Shown here: one piece after another, positions 45,393 through 59,618 of the stretch
How the letters are laid out: each line of letters begins with the position of its first letter
Position numbering within the stretch: position 1 is the first letter of the stretch
Source: a virus
Virus record (IMG/VR): IMGVR_UViG_3300031841_001859
Coordinates: 1 to 61,389 of that record
Direction: 5' to 3' (one strand)
Length of the DNA: 61,389 nt
Notes under the pieces: generated by a model
What the model was told of the DNA's origin: nothing
Databases searched by the model: none
Seen by the model: only the letters and a program-made list of their open reading frames with translations
Program-made: the position numbers and the translations under genes

Positions 45393-45914
45393 TTATAAAA
45401 TTTTTTCTAATTTTTGATTTAATTGCTTATATTTTTCTTTAGCGTGATGGGGTTCGTAACCATAATGTTTTTTAGCTAGAGCAAAAAAACTATCGTATTC
45501 TTTAAGAAGACCATCCTCTATAAATGATTTTAAAATTTTACATCTATTAGATAAAATTTCGTTTTGCTCAATCAACTCATCAATTGTAAAGTATGTGTCT
45601 TTTCCGATAGGAACATTTAATTTTTTCATTAAAATTTCTTTAAGCTCATTGTATGGGTCAAGGTATTTTTTGTCATTTGAAAATACAAAATTATCAAACT
45701 GCCTTAGGCCATGAAGGACTGTAGCGTGGTTTCTATTAACTGCTTCTCCTATCTGAGATAAAGAACAAAAAGTAAAATCTCTACATAATTTGTAAAATAT
45801 AAAACGTGACACAACAAAGTGATGTTGACGGGCTTTTCGTCTTAATTGAACTTTAAATTTTGATTCTACTAATTGCAGTATTATGGTTATAGATTTAATA
45901 AATTTAGGTTTCAT
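45393..45914 (-). CDS. DnaA domain IV-like DNA-binding protein (first)
   Basis: 173 residues. The segment from about 27 to 75, including RKARQHHFVVSRFIFYKLCR, SLSQIGEAVNRNHATVLHG and LRQF, matches the duplex-DNA-binding domain IV of DnaA, where the signature is DHTTVLHA. The AAA+ ATPase part is absent. A stand-alone domain IV could recognise DnaA-box-like sites in the phage origin or compete with host DnaA. A second protein of this type is at 53292. Confidence 0.75.
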   Translation of the reverse strand: MKPKFIKSITIILQLVESKFKVQLRRKARQHHFVVSRFIFYKLCRDFTFCSLSQIGEAVNRNHATVLHGLRQFDNFVFSNDKKYLDPYNELKEILMKKLNVPIGKDTYFTIDELIEQNEILSNRCKILKSFIEDGLLKEYDSFFALAKKHYGYEPHHAKEKYKQLNQKLEKIL

Positions 45915-46245
45915 AGTCGATAGTTTTATTAAGGTTTAAGTAGTCTAAGTATTCATCCGAAGATATTATATTAAATTTATAAAACAAAGGAAACATACTT
46001 CTTGAGTTAAGATATTCAACGCTGAAGAACAAAGGTTCTTGCATGGTCACAACACCTGCAATCATACCAAATCTTTTAGGCTCATCAGCATATTTTTTTT
46101 CTTCCTGCATTTCAGTCGCAAGTTTATCTAGCTGCATTATAATTCCAGCGCTATAAAGTGGAGGCAAACTTTCTAGCTCTTCTAAAAATTTTTCTTCCAT
46201 TTCATAAAAGTGGTCATCCCCTGAAAATCTCTGTTGTAAACCCAT
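45904..46245 (-). CDS. Hypothetical protein, 113 aa
   Basis: A mixed alpha/beta protein (EEKFLEELESLPPLYSAGII, RFGMIAGVVTMQEPLFFSVE) that overlaps the genes on both sides. No known motif. Confidence 0.55.
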   Translation of the reverse strand: MGLQQRFSGDDHFYEMEEKFLEELESLPPLYSAGIIMQLDKLATEMQEEKKYADEPKRFGMIAGVVTMQEPLFFSVEYLNSRSMFPLFYKFNIISSDEYLDYLNLNKTIDYET

Positions 46246-46462
46246 ACTCTTCTAGTTCTTCTATTCTGTATTCCTGAAGTTTTGAAACCTTTCCCTTCGG
46301 TGTTTTAATTTCAAAAAACTTTACACCCAAATCTTTATGTAAGGCAAGCACATCTGGAATACCGTTCTTATTTGTTTTAATTAATTTAATAACATAGTAA
46401 CCTTCAGCTTCTAATTCTTTTATTTTTTTAGACTGAATCTGTTGCTCTGTCATTATATGCAA
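46214..46462 (-). CDS. VRR-NUC-type nuclease
   Basis: 82 residues; an in-frame ATG at 46453 is the likelier start. It shows the VRR-NUC pattern: a helix with E, then GIPDVLAL (metal-binding D) and VKFFEIKTPKGKVSKLQ (ExK with the conserved helix QxxRIEEL). These stand-alone nucleases often accompany phage helicases and resolve branched DNA; here an SF2 helicase lies 600 bases upstream in the operon. Confidence 0.82.
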   Translation of the reverse strand: MHIMTEQQIQSKKIKELEAEGYYVIKLIKTNKNGIPDVLALHKDLGVKFFEIKTPKGKVSKLQEYRIEELEEYGFTTEIFRG

Positions 46463-46826
46463 ATTTACTTAATTCTTTTATTGGTATTAATACTGATAAA
46501 GATGTTTTGTCATCACCCATTTCTTTTACTGCACCTTTTAAATAATATTCTCTCGCTATTTCCTTAAGTCTTTTGGTTTTAATAAAGATAATAACTTCAT
46601 CTCTGTATTGTTCAGCCAGCACAAACGCATAATAATCAGACTTGGTTTTTGAAATACCAGATGGCCTGCCTCTGCTTTCAAACTCAATAGCTATATTCCC
46701 TGTTGTGCCTGTCCAGAAATCTCTTTTAACTTCTATGGTACAATTTTTAAATATATGGTCAACAAGTTGCTCTCCTTCTTTCCCAATAATTAAATCATAA
46801 TCAAAGTTAGTCTTTCTGTCCTTCAT
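46428..46826 (-). CDS. PD-(D/E)xK-like nuclease, possible resolvase
   Basis: 132 residues with DLIIGKEGEQLVDHIF, IEVKRDFW and GNIAIEFESRGRPSGI followed by TKSDYYAFVL. The E...ExK...IEFES order and the GxPSGI.xTKSDYY ending resemble phage endonuclease-I-like or resolvase nucleases. It overlaps the VRR-NUC gene by about 26-35 bases and the next upstream gene by 20. Confidence 0.65.
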   Translation of the reverse strand: MKDRKTNFDYDLIIGKEGEQLVDHIFKNCTIEVKRDFWTGTTGNIAIEFESRGRPSGISKTKSDYYAFVLAEQYRDEVIIFIKTKRLKEIAREYYLKGAVKEMGDDKTSLSVLIPIKELSKFAYNDRATDSV

Positions 46827-47046
46827 CTTTTTTAGCAGCTTCTTCTGCTTTGGCAGCTTCTTCTGCTTTGGCAGCTTCTTCTTTTAGTTTATCAATAGCC
46901 TCTTGATAGTCAGGCATCCTTTTAATCGTTTCGAGTGTGCCCCTTGCTATGCTATTGATGTTTCGTAAATCAGATATTACCAAACCCATTGTTTCTTCGA
47001 GCTTGTTAATCTTGTTTACCATCTCTATTAATTTTGCTTCTTTCAT
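46807..47046 (-). CDS. Small coiled-coil protein with AEEAAK repeat
   Basis: 79 residues: a helical N-terminus (EMVNKINKLEETMGLVISDL) and a C-terminal repeat KAEEAAKAEEAAKKDEG. It overlaps the nuclease gene by 20 bases. Likely a small oligomeric protein; function unknown. Confidence 0.6.
   Translation of the reverse strand: MKEAKLIEMVNKINKLEETMGLVISDLRNINSIARGTLETIKRMPDYQEAIDKLKEEAAKAEEAAKAEEAAKKDEGQKD
46840..46875 (-). repeat. 18-bp tandem repeat, two full copies
   Basis: TTCTTCTGCTTTGGCAGC (plus strand) repeated twice plus a partial copy, encoding AEEAAK units in the gene above. It suggests slippage-driven length change of a helix. Confidence 0.85.
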
Positions 47047-47048
47047 AA

Positions 47049-48278
47049 TTATAAACTTAATAAATCTTTTTCGAAATGTTTCAAAGTGTAATCTTTTTTC
47101 TTTGATACCGTCTTATAAATTTTATCTTCGATTCCGTTGTCTGCAAAAATCCAGTACACATAATTCTTTCTTGAATCTTTAGTTGTCATTCTATCTCTGG
47201 ATTGCCAGTAGCTAAGTGCACTAAAGTCTATGTTGTAATACACCAGGTAATCAGCTTCTTTCAAACTTATTCCCTCTCTTCCACTTACTATCTGCAACGC
47301 AATACTTTTATTTGTGGTCTTAAACTCTTCCAACTCGGTAGTAAGAGTGTCGCCCAAGACACTTTTTAAAGCATCGTATTCAGCTTTAAATTTATAAAAG
47401 ATACCGAGCTTCTTATTTTTAAATTGCGTGGCTATAAACTCCGCTTTTGATGTATCGAGAACTAAAGACTTTCCGCTTTCAAACTTCACAGTACCAGAAA
47501 ACATTTGATGAATCTTTGACATAAGCTTAACTCCAGTGTCTGCTAATATAACTTCACCCGTCTTTCCCTTTATAACTAAATCTGTTTTTAATTTTTTAAT
47601 TAACTGGTAGGTAGTAAAATCCATTTTTACTTTCAATACTTTCTCAATAGTCTCTACTTTAAACCCCGCCTCCTTCTGCGTGTAGGAAATCATATATGGT
47701 TTCATTTCATCTAAGATTGTTTCTTTGCCTTGCGTGTAGTCGTTGTGTGGCATTGCTCCAATCTTTTTCTGAAACACATTGACATACTCTCTTGCGAACT
47801 TATAAAAGTTTGTGTGATGTTTGAAAGGATTGTTAGGACAAGAGTACACTTGATGATACATCTGACTAAATGATTCGGGAGTTGGTGTTCCTGACATTAG
47901 AATAACGTAGGGTCTATTGATAAGTATTATATCTTTTACTTGCTTAGCTCTCTTACTTGGCTTTGGATACGCACCCATTGAATGAGCTTCATCAAGTACA
48001 ATTAAATCAAACTTACCTTGAATCTTATGTAAGCTTTCATAATTAATAATAACAATCTCGTAGTTGGGATTTAGTTTATTGTAATCTTCCTGGATGGAAG
48101 ACATCGCTTTCTTCTTTGTTACGAACAACATCCTGCCAATGTTTAAATTGTTTGCTACACCCATAGCAGTAAGTGTCTTTCCAGTTCTTACCTGCATAGA
48201 CAAATAAACAAACTTACTTTTATAAACCACGGCTGTGGCTTTTTTAATAATCTCTATTTGATAGTCACGATACTTCAT
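47049..48278 (-). CDS. SF2 DNA helicase (SNF2/DEAH type)
   Basis: 409 residues. Motif I MQVRTGKTLTA (28-38), motif II DEAH (96-99), motif III SGT (129-131), and the C-terminal motifs SGREGISLKEADYLVYYN (V) and WQSRDRMTTKDSRK (VI). It resembles the compact helicases that many marine phages carry with replication and repair genes, for unwinding or fork remodelling. A degenerate copy of the dispersed palindrome falls at 47346-47363 within it. Confidence 0.86.
   Translation of the reverse strand: MKYRDYQIEIIKKATAVVYKSKFVYLSMQVRTGKTLTAMGVANNLNIGRMLFVTKKKAMSSIQEDYNKLNPNYEIVIINYESLHKIQGKFDLIVLDEAHSMGAYPKPSKRAKQVKDIILINRPYVILMSGTPTPESFSQMYHQVYSCPNNPFKHHTNFYKFAREYVNVFQKKIGAMPHNDYTQGKETILDEMKPYMISYTQKEAGFKVETIEKVLKVKMDFTTYQLIKKLKTDLVIKGKTGEVILADTGVKLMSKIHQMFSGTVKFESGKSLVLDTSKAEFIATQFKNKKLGIFYKFKAEYDALKSVLGDTLTTELEEFKTTNKSIALQIVSGREGISLKEADYLVYYNIDFSALSYWQSRDRMTTKDSRKNYVYWIFADNGIEDKIYKTVSKKKDYTLKHFEKDLLSL
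47346..47363. repeat. Dispersed palindrome copy 3, imperfect (AGTGTC...GACACT)
   Basis: Outer 6-bp arms are intact; the inner pair is mismatched. In the helicase gene (minus strand) it reads AGT GTC TTG GGC GAC ACT (SVLGDT), the same frame as the other coding copies. Confidence 0.6.
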
Positions 48279-48326
48279 AAAAAAACCGAGGAGCAGAAAT
48301 CAACCAAACGACCCCCCGGCATAAAC

Positions 48327-48692
48327 TTATTTAATTTGTTTTAATAAAAATTTTAAAAGATGAGCATAAGAATTTTTAGGATTGTCTTTGTAAAAATCTT
48401 TTGGCTCATGCAGTACGAACTGAATTTTTTTCCAGCCAGTGCTTGGAACTTTAAACCCATACCATAACTTGCATTGTTTTGATGCTTCCGGTAATGTGTT
48501 ACCTAATCCCCACCCTCTTGGGTATCCATGATTGTTTAATGTAAAAAGTTTTTTAGTTTCTCTAAGAAACGAAAAGTAGTTGTCACACTTCCAACCAATG
48601 TATTTGGAATTAGGATGTATATAATAATTCCATTTTAAAGTTTTACGTCTACCACTTTCATTAAGCAGCTGACGTACATCTATGATTTTCAT
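48327..48692 (-). CDS. Hypothetical protein, 121 aa
   Basis: I place the start at the ATG at 48690-48692 (MKIIDVRQLLNESGRRK) because a promoter box lies upstream at 48747-48778, inside a longer frame that begins at 48788. The product is basic and Trp/Tyr-rich (HPNSKYIGWKCDNYFSFLRE, HGYPRGWGLGN). No family recognised. Confidence 0.6.
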   Translation of the reverse strand: MKIIDVRQLLNESGRRKTLKWNYYIHPNSKYIGWKCDNYFSFLRETKKLFTLNNHGYPRGWGLGNTLPEASKQCKLWYGFKVPSTGWKKIQFVLHEPKDFYKDNPKNSYAHLLKFLLKQIK

Positions 48693-48746
48693 AATTAATG
48701 ATTTTATGTTTAAACAATTTTGACAGAACGTCAAAGAACTATAATA

Positions 48747-48778
48747 CAAAGATACGAAAAAAATATTAAATGTGCAAA
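48747..48778 (-). promoter_or_regulatory. Leftward Bacteroidetes-type promoter
   Basis: On the minus strand TTTG (48775-48778) is followed after 20 bases by TATCTTTG (48747-48754). It overlaps the primase gene's end and drives the helicase/nuclease genes. Confidence 0.65.
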
Positions 48779-48797
48779 TCTTGTTCATAACGTGGGA

Positions 48798-51212
48798 TTA
48801 GAAAGGTACTTCAAATTGTTCATCTTCTTCTTGTTTCTCTCTTATCATAAACCAACGACCCGTTGTATCTCTTCCTTCCTCTGGTGCAATACCCTCTGAA
48901 TACATACAGTAACTATGCAACCATTTGTAGAATCTTATCCTACTTATAGTCATCTTAGATTTTGGACCGTAGTCTGGATACTCATTAATGAAATCAAAAT
49001 ACATTTCATTTTTATAAATCTTAATACCTGGTGTAAGCTTGTCATTTAGCACTGTGCCTTTGAGTAAACCGCACCACTCTATAAAGTCGTGAGATGTTTC
49101 AGCTGAGAGTTGTCTAATCTTTAGATTTACAAAGTCACTCTGAACAAGCCCCTCTCTTAAATACATTTGAAGACATTGAATCATATAGTTATCAAAGATG
49201 CACCACTCATCTGAATCCCAGTCTCCAAAAAATAATTTTCCAAACTCATCTTGAGGAGTAAATGTTTTAGTGTAGTGTTGAAATAATTCTAACTCCCACT
49301 TCCTTCTAGCAAAAGAATTACCCGCACCTTTTATTGCATAGTTTGTGGTAATGGCAATCTTTGGACTCTTGCTAAATGGAATCTTAATTGCATCCTTGTT
49401 TTTCTTTTCCAGTGTCAATCCCTCAGTCACTACACTAAACAACCTTTCAAAGTCAAAGTATTTTTTAACATCATCAAAGCATAGTATCTGAGTATCAGCT
49501 GAGACTAACTGGTAAGCAAAAGACCTTTCGAAAGTAAAAGCCTTACCATCTATAGTGACAAGCTTTTTCATGTGGCTTAGAGCGTTCATAAAGATTCCTT
49601 TACCAGTTCCACCCTCTGGGTTATCAGATATAACTTCATCATTGAGAATCACTGCGGGGCAGTAAGATAAATTTTTATGACCGTGCATTAAGAATCCAAT
49701 CGTTGATTCCATCGATGCTTTTCTTTTTAAATCTTTAGCACAGATGTTATAAATAAAAGTTTGGTAATCACACTCTGTTGTATCACAGTCTTTATACATT
49801 CTATCTATCACGTGGTCTTTCCAAACATAGCCACCCAGGTCAAGATAATCTATAGCTGTTACCTCATCTTTGGTTATTTGTACTGCACAATTCTTGTAAT
49901 ACAAGTAAGAAGTTTTTGGTGTATCAGCTATAAAATATATATCAATCGTGCTTAAAAGAGTTAAAAACTCCTCTCTAAACAGTCTAGTTTGGTCAGCAAA
50001 GTAATTATAAATTGACACATCTTCATAATGATACAGTGTGTCCAAGACGAAATCTTTTATTTCTTTCTCGCTCGTGTGGTCTATAAGATTGTTTGTAACC
50101 TTGACAAATACATAGTTCTTCCCACCCTCTGGACAGTACTTATAAAATCCGCTGTCTTCTAAATACTTTTTAAATAGGATTGGTATTACTTTTATTGTAC
50201 CCTTTTCATTCTTGCTCCAAAATTTAAATGTATCATCTTCCTCTGCTTTTTCTATCACTGCATCTATTACTTCATCTTCTAGCTGCGACTCCATCAACTC
50301 TCTTCTAATAACTTTTTTTGAATCTCCTCTTTTTATTCTCTGTTTTATATCATTGATAGTCTCAGTGTCTTCGTAATACTTGGTAGCAAAGTTCTGAGTC
50401 TTTGAGTAAGCTGACCTAATGGTAGTTTCTATTTCTGATTTAGGAAAATCTTTTGATGAGTATTGATTACAAACAAATGATGCTAAGCTTTTGCTTATTC
50501 CAAAATCATTAAAGGCCATAGCTAAAATATAGACATTGTGATTGCGCTGTCCCTCAGCCATTGGATATTTTTTCTGCCACCACTTCACTAAGATATCTAC
50601 TATCTTGTTCTCATCAGTAATCTTTATTGTAGGTTTGTCTCTGTATGTACTTCTCTCATCATACTCTTCCTCTTCAATTGTATCCCAGAGTAAACTGTTT
50701 GGATTAAAATATATAAGTGGGTCATAGCTTTCATAACAAACTCTAGATAAGTTTTTACTGGTCGTGTCAAAGTATTCTGAATTGAACTCACTCTTAAGTG
50801 AATTGAAATACTTGGTATGATTCTCTGGCTCTGGTGGTATTCTAACTAAAACTTTTAATCCGTTACCAGATGGAGAAACAAAAACAGAGAACACAAACTT
50901 ATTGTTTATGAACTGCTCTTTATTCTGGAGTAAGTCTTTTGTTTTGTCGTAGCCATCAAAGTCTAAACAGATGATACCGCTGTGCTCTTGTAATGATGAA
51001 TCGCTACGCTTGTTGAATTGTCCGCTGAAACAGATAGCGGGTAGATTTTTTTTAAGTTCGTTTCTTTTAGTCTTATCCTTTTCTTTCCTTATTTCTTTGA
51101 TAAGAATTTTAGACTTGCCTTCCTTAATTCTTTTGAGTATGTAAGCTACATCTTTGAAGAAAGGTGTCTCTGTTTCTTTAATGTTTTTAAATATAGTTAC
51201 TTGTTGTTTCAA
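48798..51212 (-). CDS. Primase-helicase, VirE-N/PriCT plus SF3 helicase
   Basis: 804 residues. The N-terminal third resembles the VirE/BT4734-type primase-associated domain of Bacteroidetes elements: SGIICLDFDGYDKTKDLL and VSPSGNGLKVLVRIPPEPEN, then RVCYESYDP. Residues about 205-265 look like PriCT (RNHNVYILAMAFNDFGIS). The C-terminal half is a D5/SF3 helicase: Walker A GGTGKGIFMN (about 534), Walker B ILCFDDVKK (about 580), sensor IAITTNYAIKG. This is the phage's main replication initiator/unwinder. Confidence 0.88.
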   Translation of the reverse strand: MKQQVTIFKNIKETETPFFKDVAYILKRIKEGKSKILIKEIRKEKDKTKRNELKKNLPAICFSGQFNKRSDSSLQEHSGIICLDFDGYDKTKDLLQNKEQFINNKFVFSVFVSPSGNGLKVLVRIPPEPENHTKYFNSLKSEFNSEYFDTTSKNLSRVCYESYDPLIYFNPNSLLWDTIEEEEYDERSTYRDKPTIKITDENKIVDILVKWWQKKYPMAEGQRNHNVYILAMAFNDFGISKSLASFVCNQYSSKDFPKSEIETTIRSAYSKTQNFATKYYEDTETINDIKQRIKRGDSKKVIRRELMESQLEDEVIDAVIEKAEEDDTFKFWSKNEKGTIKVIPILFKKYLEDSGFYKYCPEGGKNYVFVKVTNNLIDHTSEKEIKDFVLDTLYHYEDVSIYNYFADQTRLFREEFLTLLSTIDIYFIADTPKTSYLYYKNCAVQITKDEVTAIDYLDLGGYVWKDHVIDRMYKDCDTTECDYQTFIYNICAKDLKRKASMESTIGFLMHGHKNLSYCPAVILNDEVISDNPEGGTGKGIFMNALSHMKKLVTIDGKAFTFERSFAYQLVSADTQILCFDDVKKYFDFERLFSVVTEGLTLEKKNKDAIKIPFSKSPKIAITTNYAIKGAGNSFARRKWELELFQHYTKTFTPQDEFGKLFFGDWDSDEWCIFDNYMIQCLQMYLREGLVQSDFVNLKIRQLSAETSHDFIEWCGLLKGTVLNDKLTPGIKIYKNEMYFDFINEYPDYGPKSKMTISRIRFYKWLHSYCMYSEGIAPEEGRDTTGRWFMIREKQEEDEQFEVPF

Positions 51213-51237
51213 TGTTGATTTATTTTTTTTGTTTTAA

Positions 51238-51259
51238 GAGGGGGTCACGATGCCCCCTC
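51238..51259 (-). other. Strong hairpin in the primase leader
   Basis: GAGGGGG / CCCCCTC with an 8-base loop, in the 74-base gap between the 51287 gene and the primase start. No T-run follows on either strand, so it is not an ordinary terminator. It may control primase translation or RNA processing. Confidence 0.6.
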
Positions 51260-51286
51260 AGAATTAAAACCAATTTATATGAAAAA

Positions 51287-51565
51287 TTAAAAAGGGAAAT
51301 TATCACTGCCCTCTTTAAGTTTTTCTACCTCTTGTTTGTCTAAAGAGGTAGTCTCGCTTTCATCTTTCTTATATGGAAGACTCTGCTTGATAGATAACTT
51401 GTCATCGCCTGCTTTTGTTTTACCATACCAAGCAGCGATTTCATATTCTTTCCCATCCAGGCCCGTCATCGTGCCTTTAAGGTCGGGTTGTGTTTCCTTT
51501 TCTTTGTAATTATTTTTGAAAAGAGAACCGCTTCCCTCTTTATGTACATATTTATCTTTATCCAT
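51287..51565 (-). CDS. SSB-like small protein with acidic NFPF tail
   Basis: 92 residues. The middle (DLKGTMTGLDGKEYEIAAWY, GDDKLSIKQSLPY) is beta-rich with positive loops. It ends EGSDNFPF, close to the DDDIPF tip by which SSB proteins recruit partners. Placed between primase and exonuclease genes, it is a candidate single-strand DNA-binding or partner-recruiting protein. The OB-fold is not proven. Confidence 0.5.
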   Translation of the reverse strand: MDKDKYVHKEGSGSLFKNNYKEKETQPDLKGTMTGLDGKEYEIAAWYGKTKAGDDKLSIKQSLPYKKDESETTSLDKQEVEKLKEGSDNFPF

Positions 51566-51575
51566 TTTGTTTTTA

Positions 51576-52370
51576 TTAAGTTAATATTCCTTTTAATACT
51601 ATGTCTTTGATAGACTTTGTATTGCTATCGCCAAAGTATTCTTTATAGTGAGTCAAAGCGTGTTCAACTTTGTTCTTACCTTTCTCGATAAACTCCGGGG
51701 AACAATTAAATACAGCTACATCATAGTAGTCTTCATCAATTGTACCATAAGACTTTTTTGTCTTTCCAATTACAAAGAACACCAAGGGCATACCGAATAA
51801 CTCCTGGTATATGTATGCTTGACTATCATAGAAGTAATAGCTAGCGTTGTTTTGGAAACTGTAGATATCTCTACTTGTTTTGATATCTATAATTATATTA
51901 TCACTAATACAATCTGCTTTACCTTTAAACAAATGCCCGTGCAGTTCTTTAATCATTGGCTCTTCATACTTAGCCCCAAACCTAAAAAGATATTCTCTTA
52001 AGCTTGCGGTCTTGCTATTGGACTCATCCATAAACCACTCTGCCATGGCTCTGACTTCATCTGCTTCACTTGTTTTAAGTGCGAAGCTTAAGTCATTCTC
52101 CTGGAGAAATTGTCTATAAGAAGCGTTCCTTACGCTTCCATCAAAAGTCGGGAAGCTTTTAGCTTTCTTTGGCTCAAGGAGAAGTTGATGAAACAACCTC
52201 CCTCTTGCCAAGTTCTCATTCTCAAGGACCGGCAATCTAAATTGCGCCGGCTCTTGATAGAGAGTTTTAATATCTGAATTGCTCAGAAATTGTTTACCAC
52301 CCTCGCCATAATAATATTCATCATTACGAAGCTTTTCTATTTCTTGCTTTAGGTTTAGTTTCTTTACCAT
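51576..52370 (-). CDS. RecE/RecB-like PD-(D/E)xK exonuclease
   Basis: 264 residues: H61 in GRLFHQLLLEP, E136/E137 in AKYEEPMI, D153 in KGKADCI, D162-x-K164 in IIDIKTSRD, then the Q/Y helix (DSQAYIYQELFG). This is the five-motif layout of RecB-family nucleases such as phage exonuclease VIII types. It overlaps the annealing-protein gene, forming a classic exonuclease/annealase recombination pair. Confidence 0.85.
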   Translation of the reverse strand: MVKKLNLKQEIEKLRNDEYYYGEGGKQFLSNSDIKTLYQEPAQFRLPVLENENLARGRLFHQLLLEPKKAKSFPTFDGSVRNASYRQFLQENDLSFALKTSEADEVRAMAEWFMDESNSKTASLREYLFRFGAKYEEPMIKELHGHLFKGKADCISDNIIIDIKTSRDIYSFQNNASYYFYDSQAYIYQELFGMPLVFFVIGKTKKSYGTIDEDYYDVAVFNCSPEFIEKGKNKVEHALTHYKEYFGDSNTKSIKDIVLKGILT

Positions 52371-52905
52371 CAGAATTTTCTTTAATTAATTTAATCTTCT
52401 TGTCATCGACATCCTTGTAGGTGTCAACTATCTTTTGGAAGATTTGCTCTTCCGACATCTCCGGTTTGTTTTCTCTATACCATTTGATGCCTCCCAACAC
52501 TTCCTCTAAATTAAATTCTTTCAGAGGTAGTTCCTCTTCTGAATCTTTTATTGGCGTGCTTGATTGTTTGACAGCGTTAGCCACCTCATTGTATGAAGCA
52601 ACTGCTTCATCAATTCCAATACCAAAATTACCAAGGGCTCTACCCCACGCTGAGGTCTCACAGTTCTCCACATAACTTGTTTTGTTTATGAACGAACTTC
52701 CCTTGACTTCCTGGGCTAAGCCAGTCGAAATTGGTACTTGGTTATCATCAAAGATTGTAGCCTTGATGAGTATAGTAGTCTCAGTAGTTTCTAAAACTTC
52801 TGAGATAAGACTGTAGCCAGGGTAATTAGAACGAAAGTATTTAAGTCTTTCGTTTACCTCAACATAAGCCTTATTTTGAATAGTAGTAGTTTTAAGTTTA
52901 GTCAT
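52324..52905 (-). CDS. Single-strand annealing protein (ERF/Rad52-like)
   Basis: 193 residues. The beta-beta-beta-alpha core (LISEVLETTETTILIKATIF) leads to SYVENCETSAWGRALGNFGI and ASYNEVANA, a motif set typical of ERF/Sak-type annealases in Bacteroidetes phages. The C-terminal 80 residues are acidic then basic (ETKPKARNRKAS). It pairs with the exonuclease for recombination-dependent replication or repair. Confidence 0.75.
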   Translation of the reverse strand: MTKLKTTTIQNKAYVEVNERLKYFRSNYPGYSLISEVLETTETTILIKATIFDDNQVPISTGLAQEVKGSSFINKTSYVENCETSAWGRALGNFGIGIDEAVASYNEVANAVKQSSTPIKDSEEELPLKEFNLEEVLGGIKWYRENKPEMSEEQIFQKIVDTYKDVDDKKIKLIKENSDGKETKPKARNRKAS

Positions 52906-53329
52906 TACTTTTTAATTTTTGAGTTAGCTTGAAATATTTTTTGAGTATCTGCTCTCTAGTTTCCTTGAAGAACTTCAACCTCTTCTGACTGTTGCTGCTG
53001 TTTATTTCTCTTGCGATACTATCCTTTATTCTCTCTAGTTTAGATTTGTATTTGGATAGTGTCATTTGAATCACAGCCTTTCTCCACCCTTGCTCCTGGA
53101 AAAACATATAGCCCTCCGGGTCAATCTCGACATAGTAGTTGGTGCTTTTTTGTGGGTCAAATATTTTAACCTCGCCAGTCTCATCATCTCTAATGATTTT
53201 AACTCCCAGGTAAATACAAGACTCATACCCATCTCCTATGAGGTGTACACTTGCATAATCAGAACAAGCTTCATTGAATATTTCATCTAAGTTATACTTC
53301 AATTTCTTCTTGCATAATTGAATTAGCAA
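52898..53329 (-). CDS. Hypothetical protein, 143 aa
   Basis: The first 10 residues overlap the upstream gene; a TTG giving MKYNLDEIFNEAC may be the true start. Beta-rich centre (SCIYLGVKIIRDDETGEVKI, EIDPEGYMFFQEQGWRK), helical basic end. No known domain. Confidence 0.55.
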   Translation of the reverse strand: MLIQLCKKKLKYNLDEIFNEACSDYASVHLIGDGYESCIYLGVKIIRDDETGEVKIFDPQKSTNYYVEIDPEGYMFFQEQGWRKAVIQMTLSKYKSKLERIKDSIAREINSSNSQKRLKFFKETREQILKKYFKLTQKLKSND

Positions 53330-53597
53330 TTAGTTTAAAGTCCTTATCGTTTTCGATAGTCGTTGTTATCTCCTTGATACCGTGTAGTATCGTAGTGTGC
53401 TCAAGAGAGTGACCCTCCCTAGACATATAATCTTTTATCTCGGTTGGTCTCATTCCTCTTTTCGTACACAAGTAGTATAACAATTGTCTAGCCTCAACGA
53501 CTGACTTCTTTCTAGACTTTTCAAACAAGTCCGCATGGTTTATTTCCATGTGCTCTAATATTCTTTCAATGAACTTTTTAAATAATTTATATTTCAT
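53292..53597 (-). CDS. DnaA domain IV-like DNA-binding protein (second)
   Basis: 101 residues. KKSVVEARQLLYYLCTKRGM, TEIKDYMS and SLEHTTILHGIKEI match DnaA domain IV, with EHTTILHG close to the DHTTVLHA signature. Like the 45393 protein it lacks the ATPase. The two share only the motif pattern, so they may recognise different sites. Confidence 0.75.
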   Translation of the reverse strand: MKYKLFKKFIERILEHMEINHADLFEKSRKKSVVEARQLLYYLCTKRGMRPTEIKDYMSREGHSLEHTTILHGIKEITTTIENDKDFKLIANSIMQEEIEV

Positions 53598-53599
53598 AA

Positions 53600-53782
53600 T
53601 TAAATTTTTAGAGATTGTAAAATTTTTTGAAGGAATACATCTTGCTTAGATTCTGACATCGTATTCTTGTGAGTCTGAAAAAACTTAACCGATGTATGTA
53701 CCTCCCCTAATTTTTTTTTAAGGGCCTCATTACTTTGTAGTAAGTAGGTATTTAATTCTTGTTGTGCAGTTTGCTCCGGCAT
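53600..53782 (-). CDS. Small helical protein, 60 aa
   Basis: Gln/Lys-rich helix (LNTYLLQSNEALKKKLGEVH). Two bases from each neighbour. Function unknown. Confidence 0.5.
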   Translation of the reverse strand: MPEQTAQQELNTYLLQSNEALKKKLGEVHTSVKFFQTHKNTMSESKQDVFLQKILQSLKI

Positions 53783-53784
53783 AA

Positions 53785-54078
53785 TTAAAGGTGTAATAAT
53801 TTTAATCTTCTTTTATATTTCCTAGCTAGAGCCAGTTCCTTTTTACAATCGTTCAATAAATCTAAATCATCTTTAGATAATTTGCAAATAAAATAGGATT
53901 GACTTTGCTTTTTTGTTCGTGTCGTTCTTTTTCTAACGACCTCCACTTGTGTCTCTAAATCCATAGAAAATATTCTCCTGGAAATATTATTGTGGAGTTC
54001 AATTATCCTATCATAAATATATTTTTTATGATTGGATACTCTCTTGTAGTTTTTCAGTAAGGTTGGTATTGTTTTCAT
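53785..54078 (-). CDS. Hypothetical basic protein, 97 aa
   Basis: Lys/Arg-rich with a VRKRTTRTKKQSQSYF stretch and C-terminal helix (DDLDLLNDCKKELALARKYK). It overlaps the zinc-ribbon gene by 53 bases in another frame. Possible nucleic-acid binder. Confidence 0.5.
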   Translation of the reverse strand: MKTIPTLLKNYKRVSNHKKYIYDRIIELHNNISRRIFSMDLETQVEVVRKRTTRTKKQSQSYFICKLSKDDLDLLNDCKKELALARKYKRRLKLLHL

Positions 54079-54259
54079 TTGTTGTTGAGTTGGTTGCGAT
54101 TGGTGTTAGATGATAGACATAATCAGAGTAGATTGTCTCTTGGTGTCCACAAGCTTTACACTTATAAATGTGTTCCGCCCATTCTCCCATATAACTAGAA
54201 TCAACAAGTGTCAATTCAGTTGGGGAACAAGCGGAACAATTTTTATATACAAAACTCAT
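54026..54259 (-). CDS. Zinc-ribbon protein, 77 aa
   Basis: Two Cys pairs, CSAC near residue 8 and CKAC near 33, frame a beta hairpin (WAEHIYKCKACGHQETIY): a treble-clef or ribbon zinc site. The rest is polar. A promoter-like box lies nine bases upstream. Likely a small regulator or nucleic-acid binder. Confidence 0.65.
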   Translation of the reverse strand: MSFVYKNCSACSPTELTLVDSSYMGEWAEHIYKCKACGHQETIYSDYVYHLTPIATNSTTNENNTNLTEKLQESIQS

Positions 54260-54267
54260 AGATAGTG

Positions 54268-54299
54268 TAAAGATAGTTCATTGATTTGTCACTACCAAA
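54268..54299 (-). promoter_or_regulatory. Leftward promoter
   Basis: Minus strand TTTG (54296-54299), 20-base spacer, TATCTTTA (54268-54275). Only nine bases separate the box from the zinc-ribbon ATG, so the mRNA would be nearly leaderless. Confidence 0.6.
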
Positions 54300-54302
54300 T
54301 TT

Positions 54303-54641
54303 TTATCTATTAAAATCATTTAACATTTCAATTAAGTCTGCGACCTCTTGCTTAGTTTTCCATCCCGCTACTGCGACTGAGCCTCCTAGGCAAAGTCCGA
54401 CCTCAAAGTTTTCTTTACCATCTCCGTAGAAATTGTCTCCTCCTACTACGGATATGATTAAGCCTTTGTCCTCATCTCCAACGGCATAGGTGGCTCTTAC
54501 TCCACTACCGCAAGGATGAGTTTTAAATTCTAAGGAGTCAAAAGTATCTTTAACTTTTTCTTCCATCTCTTTATCAAGTTGTTCAATCGACTTCACATCG
54601 ATATCTAAAACTTTATTTATTACTTCATTAAATTTAGTCAT
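54303..54641 (-). CDS. Hypothetical protein, 112 aa
   Basis: I take the internal ATG (MTKFNEVINKVLDI) as start since it follows the promoter at 54672-54703 with a short leader; an upstream ATG at 54665 is possible. Beta-rich core (VRATYAVGDEDKGLIISVVG, EVGLCLGGSVAVAG). Unknown. Confidence 0.6.
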   Translation of the reverse strand: MTKFNEVINKVLDIDVKSIEQLDKEMEEKVKDTFDSLEFKTHPCGSGVRATYAVGDEDKGLIISVVGGDNFYGDGKENFEVGLCLGGSVAVAGWKTKQEVADLIEMLNDFNR

Positions 54642-54671
54642 AACAATTAATTTTAAGTTAAACAAAGGTGT

Positions 54672-54703
54672 AAAGATAGTTCATAACATTTATATTACCA
54701 AAT
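54672..54703 (-). promoter_or_regulatory. Leftward promoter
   Basis: Minus strand TTTG (54700-54703), 20-base spacer, TATCTTTA (54672-54679), sharing the TTTGGTA...ATGAAC context of the 54268 promoter. Confidence 0.65.
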
Positions 54704-54712
54704 AATAATGCA

Positions 54713-54741
54713 AAAAAAAAGCAGGCCTTTCGACCTGCTTC
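54713..54741 (-). terminator. Rho-independent terminator, leftward
   Basis: On the minus strand AAGCAGG / CCTGCTT with a TCGAAAGG-type loop, followed by eight T. It closes the unit of the 55308-54759 genes before the promoter at 54672. Confidence 0.88.
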
Positions 54742-54758
54742 AACATTAAAACTAAAAT

Positions 54759-54869
54759 TTAAACAGTATAGAAACTGCAGTTCTCTCCGCACATTGAACA
54801 CCTACTGTACATTAGTTCATTGCCGTAAGGTAGTGCATCGCAGCAGCTAGATAGGAACGTTGGTTTCAT
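54759..54869 (-). CDS. Tiny Cys-rich zinc-finger protein, 36 aa
   Basis: MKPTFLSSCCDALPYG followed by RCSMCGENCSFYTV: a CC pair and CxxCxxxC, enough for one zinc site. It overlaps the upstream gene by 23 bases and ends 18 bases before the terminator. Similar miniature zinc proteins recur in Flavobacteria phages (memory). Confidence 0.6.
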   Translation of the reverse strand: MKPTFLSSCCDALPYGNELMYSRCSMCGENCSFYTV

Positions 54870-55089
54870 TATTATTTTCTTTTAATATTTCTTGTATTCC
54901 ATTTAGTCTTCTGAGTTTTTCATCAGTTGGTAGTTCGTTCCAATCTCCTGGTGGTTGCCACTCGGGGTTGGCTTTTCTCATAGTAGCAAAAACAATTCTT
55001 TGTTTGGTTGCCACTTTCTCTTCATCGGTATCAGATAATAATTCTGACATCCATAAAAATTTGTTAGCTAGATTTAGTAAGTCATTCAT
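54847..55089 (-). CDS. Hypothetical protein, 80 aa
   Basis: Acidic helical protein (LNLANKFLWMSELLSDTDEE, LRRLNGIQEILKEN). Two bases after the 55092 gene. Function unknown. Confidence 0.55.
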   Translation of the reverse strand: MNDLLNLANKFLWMSELLSDTDEEKVATKQRIVFATMRKANPEWQPPGDWNELPTDEKLRRLNGIQEILKENNNETNVPI

Positions 55090-55091
55090 TG

Positions 55092-55304
55092 TTATTTATT
55101 TTTAGTGTTAAGATGTTTCATTAAACTTTCTAAGGCAAAATCTATAAACGGGTCTGCCTTTTGTTTGAATACAAGTTCTCCTTGAGTTCTTGTTCTAGGT
55201 ATATTCATCCTAGTTCTATCCTTATCAGATAGTTGCTCTGCCCACTCTTTGGTTTCTCGTTGGGCTTTCTTTTGTTTATGGCCGTGCCATTTAGGTTTGT
55301 TCAT
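55092..55304 (-). CDS. Small basic protein, 70 aa
   Basis: Begins MNKPKWHGHKQKKAQRETKE, with RMNIPRTRTQGELVFKQ and a final helix. Lies between the amidotransferase fusion and the 80-residue gene, spaced by three and two bases. Unknown. Confidence 0.55.
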   Translation of the reverse strand: MNKPKWHGHKQKKAQRETKEWAEQLSDKDRTRMNIPRTRTQGELVFKQKADPFIDFALESLMKHLNTKNK

Positions 55305-55307
55305 TAT

Positions 55308-56417
55308 TTATAGTTTAAATTGTTGCATTACTTCCTCGGTCTCAAATTTCTGACACGAGTGACACCACCATTCATTTGAGTAAGGGTCTTGCTCGGTTGC
55401 TTGTGAGCAGTCCGGACATAGCCTAGTCTCCTGGTTGTAGTTAAGTTCAAAACATTGAGTGTCGCTAGCGACACTCTCCGTTTCTTTCAAGTACTCTTCT
55501 TGTCTCCACCAAGGAGTCCACTCCTTACTGTCTGCATAAGTATAAGACCTATCTCTTAGGGAAAACTTAGGATAGGTTTTTTCGTAGCTACTGTGTAGCT
55601 GCTTGCCTTTGTACTCTTGACCTTGGCCAAAGTATAACCAAGCTTTGTACACTCTGCCTTTAACAAGCACAGTGATTTCTCTTCTCTTGTAGTGTCTCGG
55701 GTGTCCCTCAAGCATATCGAGTTGAGCAAGTGTAGTATCACTGACTGCAAACAAATCAATATCAATAAGGTGTCCCACTCCTGGCTTGTCTATCACATAA
55801 GGTAGCCCTGGTATTATCATCGGGTACTTCATGGTTGTTTTACCTTTACCAATAAAGGTTTCATTTCTAAGATAGCTATAGTAGTTGCCATTGCCTTTCT
55901 TAAGTGTACCATAGACTGCTACAAGGTTGTTCTTAATAACATTGTCTTTGGAGTACCAGGTGCTGCCATCTTTAGTCCATAACTTTTGGTTGTAGATTTG
56001 AAATGTTCTATTCCTGGTGTTGATAGTAACAAACCTGGAATCATACTTCGCAAGTTCTTTTTTCCAAGTGTTACGAGGTATCATACCGAGTGCATTAGCG
56101 AGGGTGCGAGAATCAGATACCGCATCAGTTCCTAGCCCTGGTATTGTACCATTGTGCATCAGTAGTTCGTGCTTGTTGTTACCACATACGAAAGGATGGG
56201 TGTTGGCCTTGTTAACTTTACCTTTGGTTGCATATCTGAAATGAGCAATGAAAGGTCTATTGGTTACAAGTTTTTTCCAGTCCGTAGACTTATGATAAGT
56301 TGTCTCGTAAGTATCGAGCCAAACAATCCCCAGTCCGTGAGGATTTATTTTTGAGGATGTCCTCAAAGTTGTTTTTGACAATTGCTTGCCGGTTTGATTG
56401 ATTATTATTACACACAT
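55308..56417 (-). CDS. Fusion: class II glutamine amidotransferase + gamma-glutamylcyclotransferase (GGCT/AIG2) + zinc ribbon
   Basis: 369 residues in three parts. Residues 1-155: Ntn-hydrolase glutaminase with the N-terminal nucleophile Cys2 (MCVIIINQTGK), HFRYATKG and MHNGT (88-91) oxyanion region. Residues 163-275: GGCT/AIG2-like fold with VAVYGTLKKGNGNY (YGT at 169-171) and catalytic Glu in LDMLEGHPRHYKRRE (E237). C-terminus about 330-360: CPDC...CHSC zinc ribbon. In bacteria these folds accompany amidoligases and handle gamma-glutamyl amides. Here an amidoligase is encoded two genes upstream. A palindrome copy encodes SVASDT in the hinge before the ribbon. Confidence 0.85.
   Translation of the reverse strand: MCVIIINQTGKQLSKTTLRTSSKINPHGLGIVWLDTYETTYHKSTDWKKLVTNRPFIAHFRYATKGKVNKANTHPFVCGNNKHELLMHNGTIPGLGTDAVSDSRTLANALGMIPRNTWKKELAKYDSRFVTINTRNRTFQIYNQKLWTKDGSTWYSKDNVIKNNLVAVYGTLKKGNGNYYSYLRNETFIGKGKTTMKYPMIIPGLPYVIDKPGVGHLIDIDLFAVSDTTLAQLDMLEGHPRHYKRREITVLVKGRVYKAWLYFGQGQEYKGKQLHSSYEKTYPKFSLRDRSYTYADSKEWTPWWRQEEYLKETESVASDTQCFELNYNQETRLCPDCSQATEQDPYSNEWWCHSCQKFETEEVMQQFKL
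55457..55476. repeat. Dispersed palindrome copy 4 (GAGTGTCG-CTAG-CGACACTC)
   Basis: Perfect 20-bp palindrome in the amidotransferase fusion gene, between the GGCT and zinc-ribbon parts; same reading frame as the other coding copies. Confidence 0.88.
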
Positions 56418-56467
56418 AGTTAGTTAGTTGCGAGGGTGCACCATTGTACACGACCTCAAGTTATACA

Positions 56468-56499
56468 CAAAGATACAACAAGTTATGCACATTACCAAA
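56468..56499 (-). promoter_or_regulatory. Leftward promoter of the amidotransferase unit
   Basis: Minus strand TTTG (56496-56499), 20-base spacer, TATCTTTG (56468-56475), 51 bases before the ATG at 56417. Confidence 0.7.
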
Positions 56500-56539
56500 T
56501 TTATTTGTAAGTGCCTGGTTTCCAGAGTTGTAAAATTTT

Positions 56540-56570
56540 TTTGGATTTTCAGATTTGTTTCTTATATTTG
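56540..56570 (+). promoter_or_regulatory. Rightward promoter of a putative small RNA
   Basis: TTTG at 56540-56543, 19-base spacer, TATATTTG at 56563-56570. It points away from the amidotransferase promoter and has no reading frame downstream, only two hairpins. Confidence 0.6.
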
Positions 56571-56575
56571 ATAAT

Positions 56576-56652
56576 CATATTATTTATTTGTGGCGTTTGA
56601 TTAGCGCCGGATTATAATAAAAAGCCGAGTGATTTTATCGCTCGGCTTTTTT
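56576..56652 (+). ncRNA. Putative ~77-nt small RNA with two hairpins
   Basis: The predicted transcript contains GGCG...CGCC (56592-56608) and a 12-bp terminator stem AAAGCCGAGTGA / TCGCTCGGCTTT (56621-56649) with T-run. No ORF is present on either strand in this 419-base gap between genes at 56417 and 56837. A target is not known. Confidence 0.5.
56618..56652. terminator. Bidirectional terminator
   Basis: AAAAAGCCGAGTGA / TCGCTCGGCTTTTTT stem with a 5-base loop; both flanks give a T-run on their own strand. Confidence 0.88.
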
Positions 56653-56791
56653 AATTAGAAATCGAAACAGTACAAATGTAAATCAAGGATGCGAAGAGTT
56701 AATTCGTATTCTGGTTCGGAGTAAAAAAAAATTCTAGTGTGCAAAACTTTTGCATACTATTTCATCCTAACTTTGTTTGGATTAAGCGCAC

Positions 56792-56818
56792 AAAAAAACC
56801 GGCACTAAGGCCGGCTTT
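56792..56818 (-). terminator. Terminator, leftward, after the 56837 gene
   Basis: On the minus strand CCGGC-CTTAGT-GCCGG with a run of seven T. It ends the amidoligase/unknown unit 19 bases past its stop. Confidence 0.8.
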
Positions 56819-56836
56819 CTTTTTTGTCTAAGGGTT

Positions 56837-57544
56837 TTACACCTCGACTCCTTTAAACCTTTCTAAGAGATGCGCATTTTCACTCTTGTAGGCTGCTTGG
56901 AGTTTCTCTAGTAGTAGGTCTCCGACTCTTTCGATATAGTATCTATTAGCTGCGGACCTACCTCCATCGTAGTAAGCCTCAACTTCCTCTTGGTAGTTAT
57001 ATTTAAGGCTCTTGCTTTCCGGCAAATTTAAATACTTGTCGATGGTATCAACCACTTCTTCATTAGTGTCATCCCTCCAGTAATACTCCCATGAGTAATC
57101 TTCGTAAATTTCATTATATACCTCTCTTCTATCATACTTATTTGTACCACCATTGTTGTACAAATCGTAGTAAATATTAGAGTACACTCTGAAACATTCA
57201 AGCAAAGGTTTAAAGGATTGCTTGTCTTGTAGAAAACTCGGTAGGTCATTTATAACCGCTCCGCTTTGCGGAATTAGCTTTTCAACCTTATCTGAAAAGT
57301 CCTGGTATTTACCATTGCCACTCCAGTAAGAGCCATCTTTTAACTTAAAGGAATTGGCTAAGTGATTTTCATATTTAGCCCACCACTCGGTCGGGTTATC
57401 ACATAGCATTGAGATTAAATCCATTTGGTCCTCCTCAGCTAGTAAGCTAAAGGTATCTTCGCCCTTTAATTCTTGGGCCATATAGTTCAAAAGTTTTTCA
57501 ACTTGTTCGGGCATCAGTCGATGCAATTGTTTTACATTATTCAT
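56837..57544 (-). CDS. Unknown acidic protein in the amidoligase cluster
   Basis: 235 residues, acidic and unusually Tyr/Asp/Asn-rich (YNEIYEDYSWEYYWRDDTNE, KYLNLPESKSLKYNYQEEVE, AYYDGGRSAANRYYIERVGD). No recognisable enzyme motif or membrane segment. It lies between the amidoligase and the amidotransferase fusion. It could be the acceptor/substrate of a peptide-tagging reaction, a DNA-mimic or an adaptor. I do not recognise the family. Confidence 0.65.
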   Translation of the reverse strand: MNNVKQLHRLMPEQVEKLLNYMAQELKGEDTFSLLAEEDQMDLISMLCDNPTEWWAKYENHLANSFKLKDGSYWSGNGKYQDFSDKVEKLIPQSGAVINDLPSFLQDKQSFKPLLECFRVYSNIYYDLYNNGGTNKYDRREVYNEIYEDYSWEYYWRDDTNEEVVDTIDKYLNLPESKSLKYNYQEEVEAYYDGGRSAANRYYIERVGDLLLEKLQAAYKSENAHLLERFKGVEV

Positions 57545-57622
57545 ATTTATTTAGTTTTAATTAATGTTACTGTTTCATCCTTTTGGAATCATCAGTCGGA
57601 GCACACACTCCGAAACAGCGGA

Positions 57623-57642
57623 GAGTGTCGTGAGCGACACTC
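57623..57642. repeat. Dispersed palindrome copy 5 (GAGTGTCG-TGAG-CGACACTC)
   Basis: Perfect 20-bp palindrome in the 107-base intergenic gap just after the amidoligase stop. It is preceded by a smaller inverted pair (CGGAG...CTCCG). It may also act as a weak RNA hairpin. Confidence 0.88.
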
Positions 57643-57651
57643 CCCTAGCTT

Positions 57652-58611
57652 TTACTCCCTATCTATCCTTAAGGCAGTGTTAACCATTATCCATTCGCCA
57701 TCTCTATTGGTGGTCGCTCTGTATCTTCCATAGTGACTCGAGTCCTCATTTAAGTCCTCCGGTAGGTACGGGAGTATTCTTCTCGTAACCCTACCTTTGT
57801 CGAGCATCCTTTGAAAGTCCCTAGCTAGCTGAAAGACCTCCTCGACTTTGGCTGCATCTTGGTCGTACATCCTCATCACTATCGGCCTACACTTCTCTAG
57901 GAAAGTGTTGAATCTAGTTCTCGGTCTATGTACTGCAGTGTCCATCAGTTCAAAGAAGAGCGAGTATCTCTTCATTAGTGACTCGGTGCTTGGGACAGCA
58001 CTCGGGAATCTATACTCGGCCACTTTTGACTTTGCATTGATTACCCCCCTCCAGTAGCCGGAGTTATTTAAGAACATATCCCCGTTGCCGTATCTCTTTT
58101 TAAGCCTACCTTTGTACATTGCATATATAAGCCCGGAGAACGGCTTTAAAGCGGCTTTCAGTTCTCTTCCGGACATCCCGTGAGCGGAGAGATTAATATG
58201 CCCTCCGCACGTTGTGTCCACTGGAGCATCCAGTATCGGTCTAGCCTCGGCCATCAAGTCCATCATCTTGTTTTTAAGATTAGAGTTAGGTACTAGCGGG
58301 AGTATGTTTGTAATTGCTTCACAGTCCCTTTCCGACCTTGGACTCCTTGCTACGGAGGAATCTCTTTCATACCCTCTAAAAATTGGGTACTCTTCCTCGT
58401 TATGCACAGTGAGTTTCTCTACCTCAAAGCCTATAGCAAATTTGGTTTTTAAGTATTTGCCATCGGGACTCGGAACATAATATTTTTTATTTACATCCCT
58501 TAGTTCTTGAGCCGGTACGATATTAAATTTTCTATCTAAGCCCTCAGTGCCATTGTATCTAACAAGGTGAGCCCTTGCTCTTTGTCCAGTTTTGTTGTAT
58601 TTAATTCTCAT
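57652..58611 (-). CDS. Amidoligase (COOH-NH2 ligase, glutamine-synthetase-like)
   Basis: 319 residues. GFEVE (61-65), YERDSS (81-86) and CEAITN (97-102) form the acidic metal site; TTCGGHINLS (133-142) is the signature CGxHxN loop; EYRFP (199-203) supplies the substrate-binding Arg. The arrangement is that of the Amidoligase_2 / COOH-NH2 ligase family, which joins carboxylates to amines with ATP (described by Iyer, Aravind and colleagues, often with GGCT and GAT-II genes). The product might be a gamma-glutamyl peptide or a peptide tag on host or phage protein. Its ATG overlaps the upstream gene by 11 bases. Confidence 0.8.
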   Translation of the reverse strand: MRIKYNKTGQRARAHLVRYNGTEGLDRKFNIVPAQELRDVNKKYYVPSPDGKYLKTKFAIGFEVEKLTVHNEEEYPIFRGYERDSSVARSPRSERDCEAITNILPLVPNSNLKNKMMDLMAEARPILDAPVDTTCGGHINLSAHGMSGRELKAALKPFSGLIYAMYKGRLKKRYGNGDMFLNNSGYWRGVINAKSKVAEYRFPSAVPSTESLMKRYSLFFELMDTAVHRPRTRFNTFLEKCRPIVMRMYDQDAAKVEEVFQLARDFQRMLDKGRVTRRILPYLPEDLNEDSSHYGRYRATTNRDGEWIMVNTALRIDRE

Positions 58612-59353
58612 CTTGAACAGTGTTTACATTATCAAATATGTATTGAGCGCAAGCCCTTTGGAACATCCCTAAAAATTCATTTTGAGTATCGCCCTCAAGC
58701 CTTGTTTGTGACCCTCTATTGGTAGAAAATTTAATTTGTTTCCATTGGCCATCTACTTTGATTTTCATAGAGCCCTCAAAGAATTTGCTTAGCTCTTGGC
58801 TTATCTCAGTTGCAACCTCCTCCGGAGTAATCTCGGCACTGGTATCTACAAGAGAGTTCATTATTGAATTTTTAACATCAACCGGTAAATCTGAATATCT
58901 AGTTGTATCGGCTGCTTTCATTGCATCGGCCTTAGCCTTTGCTACTTTGTTAAAAGAGTCGATATCAATTTTAACCTCTTGACCCGCAGATTTTGCAGTA
59001 TGTACTGCAGTTCTATATAAGTTTTGAGTATGTGCCGCCCCGTTGCCAGTTGCAAACTTAGCAGCCTTTTTCAGCCTATAGTACCAGGTATTTGATATTC
59101 TTAAAATTCTCTGAATATCCGTTGGACTCCAGGACATTTCCATATCTTCGAGCATAGCTTTAACACTTTGGTCTTTTAGCTTTTCCTCGATTTCTAAAAT
59201 TAACTTTCCTTTCTCGATTTGAGTGTTGAAAGTATCATATTGAGTTGCCTCAATTTGTTGGTCCAGTTGAGCATACTCCTCAAATTTTAGAGCAGTCGCA
59301 AGGCCTGGATGCCTTTCTAATAGTTGCTTTTCAGCATTGTTTAAATTTAACAT
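58601..59353 (-). CDS. Unknown protein with HTH-like segment
   Basis: 250 residues from the ATG giving MLNLNNAEKQLLERHPGLAT; an earlier ATG at 59380 is possible. Mostly helical; SWSPTDIQRILRISNTWYYR resembles a helix-turn-helix. The C-terminal half (VATEISQELSKFFEGSMKIK and VDGQWKQIKFSTNRGSQTRL) is mixed. First gene of the leftward arm and coupled to the amidoligase. It could be a regulator or a partner of the ligase. Confidence 0.6.
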   Translation of the reverse strand: MLNLNNAEKQLLERHPGLATALKFEEYAQLDQQIEATQYDTFNTQIEKGKLILEIEEKLKDQSVKAMLEDMEMSWSPTDIQRILRISNTWYYRLKKAAKFATGNGAAHTQNLYRTAVHTAKSAGQEVKIDIDSFNKVAKAKADAMKAADTTRYSDLPVDVKNSIMNSLVDTSAEITPEEVATEISQELSKFFEGSMKIKVDGQWKQIKFSTNRGSQTRLEGDTQNEFLGMFQRACAQYIFDNVNTVQDEN

Positions 59354-59602: not shown

Positions 59603-59618
59603 GTGTCGCGGGCGACAC
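59603..59618. repeat. Dispersed palindrome copy 6 (GTGTCG-CGGG-CGACAC)
   Basis: Perfect 6-bp arms, 4-base loop, at the start of the GC-rich island. Confidence 0.82.

Follow-up and report, generated by a model that had tools for sequence, protein, structure and literature searches.

Iyer et al. in 2009 are said to have described a phage amidoligase ("peptidoglycan modification") cassette. Cassettes that unite an amidoligase, a glutamine amidotransferase (GAT) and a gamma-glutamylcyclotransferase (GGCT) have been published for many phages (PMC5498523, PMC3890496, PMC5513430, PMC10580990), and two of these papers describe the type present in phiEco32, LUZ24 and RIO-1 (PMC5498523, PMC3890496). 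In LUZ24, UFV-P2 and phiEco32, the GAT and the GGCT lie close to a pair of ligases and to an ATP-grasp enzyme. Here we analyze a locus of this kind in the IMG/VR virus record IMGVR_UViG_3300031841_001859, which is a single virus record throughout (61,389 nt; hereafter the window). Four open reading frames (ORFs) that look intact lie on its minus strand, each where the original prediction, made from the sequence alone, had placed it: a fusion of a class-II GAT, a GGCT domain and a zinc ribbon (55308-56417), a Tyr/Asp-rich acidic protein (56837-57544), a ligase (57652-58611) and a helix-turn-helix (HTH) protein (58601-59353). The ligase and the fusion protein are a compact new variant of the published phage cassette. 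As in the phiEco32/LUZ24/RIO-1 type, a glutamine synthetase (GS)-like amidoligase, a class-II GATase and a GGCT adjoin one another among the early/replication genes of a podovirus, but there is one ligase, from a family undetected by Pfam, the GAT, GGCT and zinc ribbon are joined in one protein, and neither the PF14395 ligase nor the RimK ATP-grasp enzyme was found. The original prediction had called the set little described, which holds in part, since such cassettes are published for many phages.

The ligase (57652-58611, minus strand) has zero amidoligase matches in Pfam, PHROGs, NCBIfam and PADLOC, and its assignment comes from an AlphaFold2 model, fold searches, profile-profile alignment and invariant residues. 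Every top PDB fold match of the model (predicted local distance difference test, pLDDT, 89; predicted template modelling score, pTM, 0.88) is a glutamine synthetase, GmaS, Dop/PafA or YbdK, with VIA Z values of 9.1 to YbdK and 9.0 to GS, and a BFVD fold search with the same model leads to annotated phage amidoligases. When the ligase is compared with phage Amidoligase_2 proteins by hhalign (a moderate probability of 78, E value 1.8e-5) the catalytic motifs are in register, namely GFEVEK, D.S..E, CGGH and EYR, and the residues G61, E63, E65, K66, E82, D84, S86, E98, CGGH135-138, R169, E199, R201 and R215 are invariant across 68 ligase sequences. By its predicted fold and profile the ligase is a divergent Amidoligase_2-like GS-fold enzyme, which is related to that family by profile-profile comparison and stands outside PF12224 by the Pfam test. 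The GS-like amidoligase that had been proposed is thus borne out by the fold matches and conserved motifs, although the COOH-NH2 ligase label given to it has to be dropped, as the profile aligns with phage Amidoligase_2 instead and identity with COOH-NH2_lig (PF14395) was ruled out by an hhalign probability of only 1.3 against the COOH-NH2 ligases of LUZ24, UFV-P2 and phiEco32. Within the same gene, an Rfam match to a Togavirus element is far under threshold and is put down to chance. The ligase homologue in the Manatee Spring podovirus record MW202828 is the C-terminal part of a 574-residue protein (locus L001, 13137-14861), the N-terminal ~270 residues of which matched nothing in our searches, and three other loci (L073, L074 and L039) carry a second ligase copy after the fusion gene.

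The fusion protein (55308-56417, minus strand) is recognized by Pfam and by its conserved catalytic residues and cysteine pairs. Its class-II GATase match (PF13230, GATase_4; E value 4.5e-6) is above the cut-off, and the N-terminal Cys2 and the oxyanion Asn-Gly (N89, G90) of class-II glutamine amidotransferases are both present. Residues 166-274 (55596-55922, minus strand) form a GGCT (GGACT) domain (PF06094, E value 6e-20) with the hallmarks of the AIG2-like fold, YGTL169-172 and the catalytic glutamate E237. Cys2, R61, N89-G90, D102, YGTL169-172 and E237 are invariant in 39 fusion homologues, among which the zinc-ribbon cysteines 334, 337, 352 and 355 (55353-55418, minus strand) are each at least 90% conserved; a C..C...C..C tail occurs in 131 of 147 fusions. 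The three-part architecture with Cys2 and E237 had been predicted correctly, and the catalytic residues are nearly always intact in homologues, both in the 147 fusions and in 143 ligases.

Profile scans of viral contigs with small alignments gave 135 ligase and 189 fusion relatives, of which the best 80 of each were retained; a scan of the viral contigs with the lone ligase sequence found no relatives, and alignment queries were needed. Ligase and fusion occur together in 139 loci (101 distinct fusion proteins), always on one strand, where some loci are overlapping parts of a single contig. The HTH gene usually comes first, followed by the ligase, 0-4.9 kb of variable sequence, the fusion and a DnaA-domain gene. 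In a distant group that has no HTH gene (L064-L082), the ligase gene directly adjoins or overlaps that of the fusion. Loci without the ligase or without the fusion end near a contig edge, with the exception of C75C1, in which a PF12224 ligase replaces the divergent one beside a GAT-GGCT fusion. The distances among ligases and among fusion proteins correlate (Mantel r 0.69, reached by 0 of 999 permutations), as common descent would also predict. The amidoligase and the fusion are each far beyond chance, and their synteny is strong support for the two acting together; we consider it very probable, judging from the sequences, that they cooperate in amide chemistry.

The four genes had been expected to stay together, and this holds for the ligase and the fusion, with absences near contig edges, and for the HTH gene, which is also kept, but not for the Tyr/Asp-rich protein (56837-57544, minus strand), which is nearly unique to this phage. 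This acidic protein (9.4% Tyr) sits in the variable 0-4.9 kb slot, has no solid match among phage records, and its sole homologue, in a close relative (L085), is broken after 57 residues. It was ruled out as a partner in the module, having no conserved homologue, and from its distribution appears to be an accessory outside it.

We propose that the ligase and the fusion form a two-protein early enzyme module. The GAT-II domain would use Cys2 to hydrolyse glutamine, releasing ammonia or offering a gamma-glutamyl group, as its intact active site suggests. The GS-fold ligase, judged by its fold and motifs, would activate a carboxylate with ATP and couple ammonia or an amine to it in an amide or isopeptide bond, while the GGCT domain would strip gamma-glutamyl from an amine as 5-oxoproline, in editing or turnover, and the zinc ribbon probably docks the fusion onto the target or onto the ligase. 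The target would be a host macromolecule, for which a cell-envelope peptide, changed early to hinder superinfection, is the leading candidate; we name it tentatively and by analogy with the proposal for phiEco32-type cassettes. Modification of peptidoglycan or the cell wall against superinfection has been proposed for such cassettes (PMC5498523, PMC10580990), and our literature searches returned no paper identifying a substrate of a phage amidoligase cassette.

Other products of the same chemistry have to be weighed against an envelope peptide. The PafA/Dop protein ligases share the fold of the ligase, the zinc ribbon is conserved, and ligase and fusion are among the first genes of the early arm, all of which would suit modification or counter-defence directed at a host protein (polymerase, ribosome or a defence protein), onto which the ligase would couple ammonia, a polyamine or an amino acid, with the ribbon docking and the GGCT domain reversing the reaction. 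However, small-substrate GS-fold enzymes fit the ligase equally well, and with no target or defence link found and no PADLOC match we regard this as rather unlikely. In butirosin biosynthesis a gamma-glutamyl group is added and later removed as protection, and by analogy the ligase could add gamma-glutamyl to an amine in a small-molecule pathway from which GGCT later removes it. GmaS and YbdK are indeed among the best fold matches and the catalytic glutamate of the GGCT domain is intact, but biosynthetic partner genes were not seen among the window proteins scanned and the zinc ribbon would be left unexplained, making such a pathway unlikely. Auxiliary nitrogen metabolism, in which ammonia and glutamate are released and reassimilated for the infected cell, is doubtful to a slightly greater degree. 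A dedicated divergent ligase that is always linked to the fusion suggests a specific product and the host should already own a glutamine synthetase, even though this role is proposed for a similar gene set in Phage-ZRK32 (PMC10945688). Least probable is hypermodification of DNA bases, a type of pathway for which amidoligases have been suggested and in which the zinc ribbon might contact nucleic acid; no base-modification genes were seen among the window proteins scanned, which cover part of the ORFs only.

Several observations weigh against the amidoligase module as we propose it. None of 67 ligase family members matches a Pfam amidoligase model, including Amidoligase_2 (PF12224), and the hhalign probability that links them to that family is moderate only. 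The RimK ATP-grasp domain (PF08443) has no match in the window record, in a search where 13 of 14 controls were positive, and the window also differs from the phiEco32 cassette in lacking a second ligase. Around a bacterial GAT-GGCT fusion (L170), a Pfam scan of neighbouring genes showed none that encodes an amidoligase. The fusion in the window may also have its own promoter and transcript, as suggested by a 420-bp gap ahead of its gene (56468-56814) that contains hairpins resembling terminators and a promoter-like site of the Bacteroidota type, TTTG-N20-TATCTTTG (56468-56499, minus strand), which is weak, being a pattern match only, and which also matches elsewhere in the window. A two-protein early enzyme module with an envelope-peptide target and a separate HTH regulator nevertheless remains the best explanation overall, and we give it an even chance of being right as a whole.

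The HTH protein (58601-59353, minus strand; alternative TTG start at 59380) is encoded by the first gene of the early arm and is kept upstream of the ligase. It had been put forward as an HTH-like companion in the pathway, of which the HTH fold and the conserved gene stand, whereas the evidence points to a regulator of dispersed sites, outside the amide chemistry; nothing was found in favour of a role as a pathway enzyme. The window contains six copies of GTGTCN6GACAC, against none in 100 shuffled versions, and these 16-bp palindromes, found by a palindrome scan, lie upstream of the HTH gene (59603-59618), between the ligase and the Tyr/Asp gene (57625-57640), and within the fusion gene (55459-55474), a helicase gene (47347-47362, in 47049-48278), the ORF at 38358-44018 (39913-39928) and the ORF at 20107-21267 (20225-20240). 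One 6-4-6 palindrome is present in at least two copies in 127 of the 134 loci that carry the HTH gene, against 0 of 134 shuffled loci. The GTGTC-type site is found in none of ten loci that lack the gene, and another repeated palindrome in just one of these. In relatives that possess the HTH gene, the sites of a given phage mostly share a single sequence particular to it. That of the window protein is GTGTCGCNNGCGACAC, in contrast to GTGTCTTNNAAGACAC, of which five records with the HTH gene have 10-12 copies apiece and three without it have none. The 14 identical sites of MW202828 read GTGTCGTTAACGACAC and lie at 43.7-55.2 kb (43745-55154), a stretch that opens shortly upstream of its HTH gene. 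There are eleven arm sequences, and the recognition-helix region of the HTH protein differs in step with them, KVFGWQKSFFYK for example occurring with GTGTCT, GYNKSFFYD with GTCCGT and GFKKSYFMR with GTGTAC, while residue 93 is almost fixed by the arm sequence. At a ligase identity of 40-50%, HTH proteins with the same arm are more alike than those with different arms (38% vs 29%), and at 50-60% the difference is small.

We consider it likely that the HTH protein binds these palindromes, and the most probable role for it is that of a site-specific DNA-binding regulator of the phage, similar to ParB/KorB. There are points against this. The AlphaFold2 model (pLDDT 82.5) gives VIA Z values of 6.0 to the VirB core, 4.6 to SopB and 4.5 to ParB (P1), which are weak, as a Z below 8 can reflect a common arrangement; the phages without the HTH gene are a single distant group; and the pairs behind the correlation of helix and site are non-independent, and relatedness partly remains in it. 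By inspection, the ParB CTPase motif GERR is not in the consensus of 58 HTH sequences and, with PDB fold matches of the model this weak, ParB-family membership is not claimed. The palindromes might instead be RNA hairpins acting at mRNA 3' ends, in processing or in attenuation. Many do directly follow stop codons, 102 of 156 unique hammerhead ribozymes have one no more than 45 nt upstream, and the asymmetric centre TTCAAA mostly points one way in the early region and the other way elsewhere. Yet 214 of the 762 palindromes counted in the loci are inside ORFs of at least 80 aa, some copies in the window are far from the early arm, the sites accompany the HTH gene and their arms track its recognition helix, and the 14 identical copies in MW202828 occur with no hammerhead found, which together make hairpins a somewhat unlikely alternative to HTH operators. 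The orientation of the centre (TTCAAA/TTTGAA), which is kept round the early region and reversed elsewhere, was observed in records L007, L011, L020, L095 and L123 and perhaps follows transcription or replication.

The palindrome at 57625-57640 lies just 5' of a predicted self-cleaving type III hammerhead ribozyme (57569-57619, minus strand) between the ligase and Tyr/Asp genes, with the cut predicted between 57614 and 57613. The full core is present and the Rfam score (RF00008, 31.3 bits, E value 0.0096) is below the gathering value of 48.5, a curation threshold; position 10.1/11.1 is U-U, a common variant, as the standard pair is also missing in 25 of 73 relatives. A strict scan of the loci finds 230 hammerheads, 228 on the plus strand of the oriented loci and none in shuffled sequence, and a looser scan 258 in related loci (L004-L163), mostly between early genes. 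Their 5' end is mostly 20-49 nt past a stop codon and their 3' end mostly 20-29 nt ahead of an ATG, and their three stems covary strongly, with 332 both-side changes in 73 sequences, a number attained by 0 of 500 shuffles. The hammerhead in the window probably divides the transcript between the ligase and the gene that follows. No hammerheads were recognized in the LUZ24, UFV-P2 and phiEco32 stretches, although PaP3 reportedly carries one (PMC3088659). Taken together, a ParB-like HTH regulator with ~6-14 dispersed 16-bp sites and ~11 specificities that track its recognition helix, hammerheads that would make gene-sized mRNAs, and the amidoligase pair as conserved enzyme cargo form a picture for which we find the balance evenly poised. 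The HTH/palindrome system is not described in the literature searched.

The host is probably a member of the Bacteroidota, as suggested by the BT4734-like domain of the window primase, which matches 22 phage records, those with a named host all being listed as phages of Bacteroidota, by a contig binned in a Cytophagales metagenome-assembled genome, and by the leaders between hammerhead and ATG, in 219 of which no Shine-Dalgarno-like motif was found. Among bacterial genome contigs, the Cytophagales one (L169) matches most closely, having a fusion homologue of 50% identity and two hammerheads, and is probably a phage of the window lineage within the bin. Judged by the primase, the cultured phages most closely related to this one are the elemo phages of Flavobacterium. 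Elsewhere in the window, a GroEL-like chaperonin (24-737, plus strand) is present as its C-terminal part, truncated by the contig end, and MW202828 has groES/groEL near its HTH gene, from which the window is probably slightly incomplete. The phage also encodes an FkbM-type methyltransferase domain protein (1020-1793, plus strand) and two proteins with a Bac_DnaA_C (DnaA DNA-binding) domain (53292-53597 and 45393-45914, both minus strand), the first of which is syntenic in most relatives.

Amidoligase cassettes are widely distributed in phages, and a cassette cut to two proteins offers a simple version in which to hunt for the substrate. The new amidoligase family is missed by the public models used, and such cassettes are probably under-counted. 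The lineage is large and uncultured and probably consists of podoviruses of Bacteroidota, and from its lineage-specific palindromes, regulator and hammerheads comes a model, open to testing, of how early genes are controlled and possibly of immunity groups.

Among individual phages, C75C1 (OQ984151) likewise has a GAT-GGCT fusion (~40% identity) downstream of an amidoligase, but its ligase is a canonical PF12224 enzyme, the zinc ribbon is absent, and neither the HTH gene nor a repeated palindrome was found. MW202828 (ctfjg026) is a member of the lineage, sharing the HTH gene, the ligase family, the zinc-ribbon fusion and the primase family, and differs in the long N-terminal extension of its ligase, its palindrome and the lack of a hammerhead match. 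The stoperators of mycobacteriophages are dispersed short sites of one phage-encoded regulator, and together with ParB, KorB and VirB they provide an analogy for a single HTH protein, encoded by a phage or plasmid, that has some ten short sites scattered over the DNA, from which the present system differs in its modest fold match (Z 6.0), the absence of GERR from the consensus and sites that differ among related phages. Hammerhead clusters of phages and prophages flank single genes and have been proposed to cut transcripts into gene-sized mRNAs (Perreault et al. 2011, PMC3088659). Hammerheads lie between phage genes in both cases, and those described here are distinguished by very regular placement after the early genes within one phage lineage and, often, by a palindrome just upstream.

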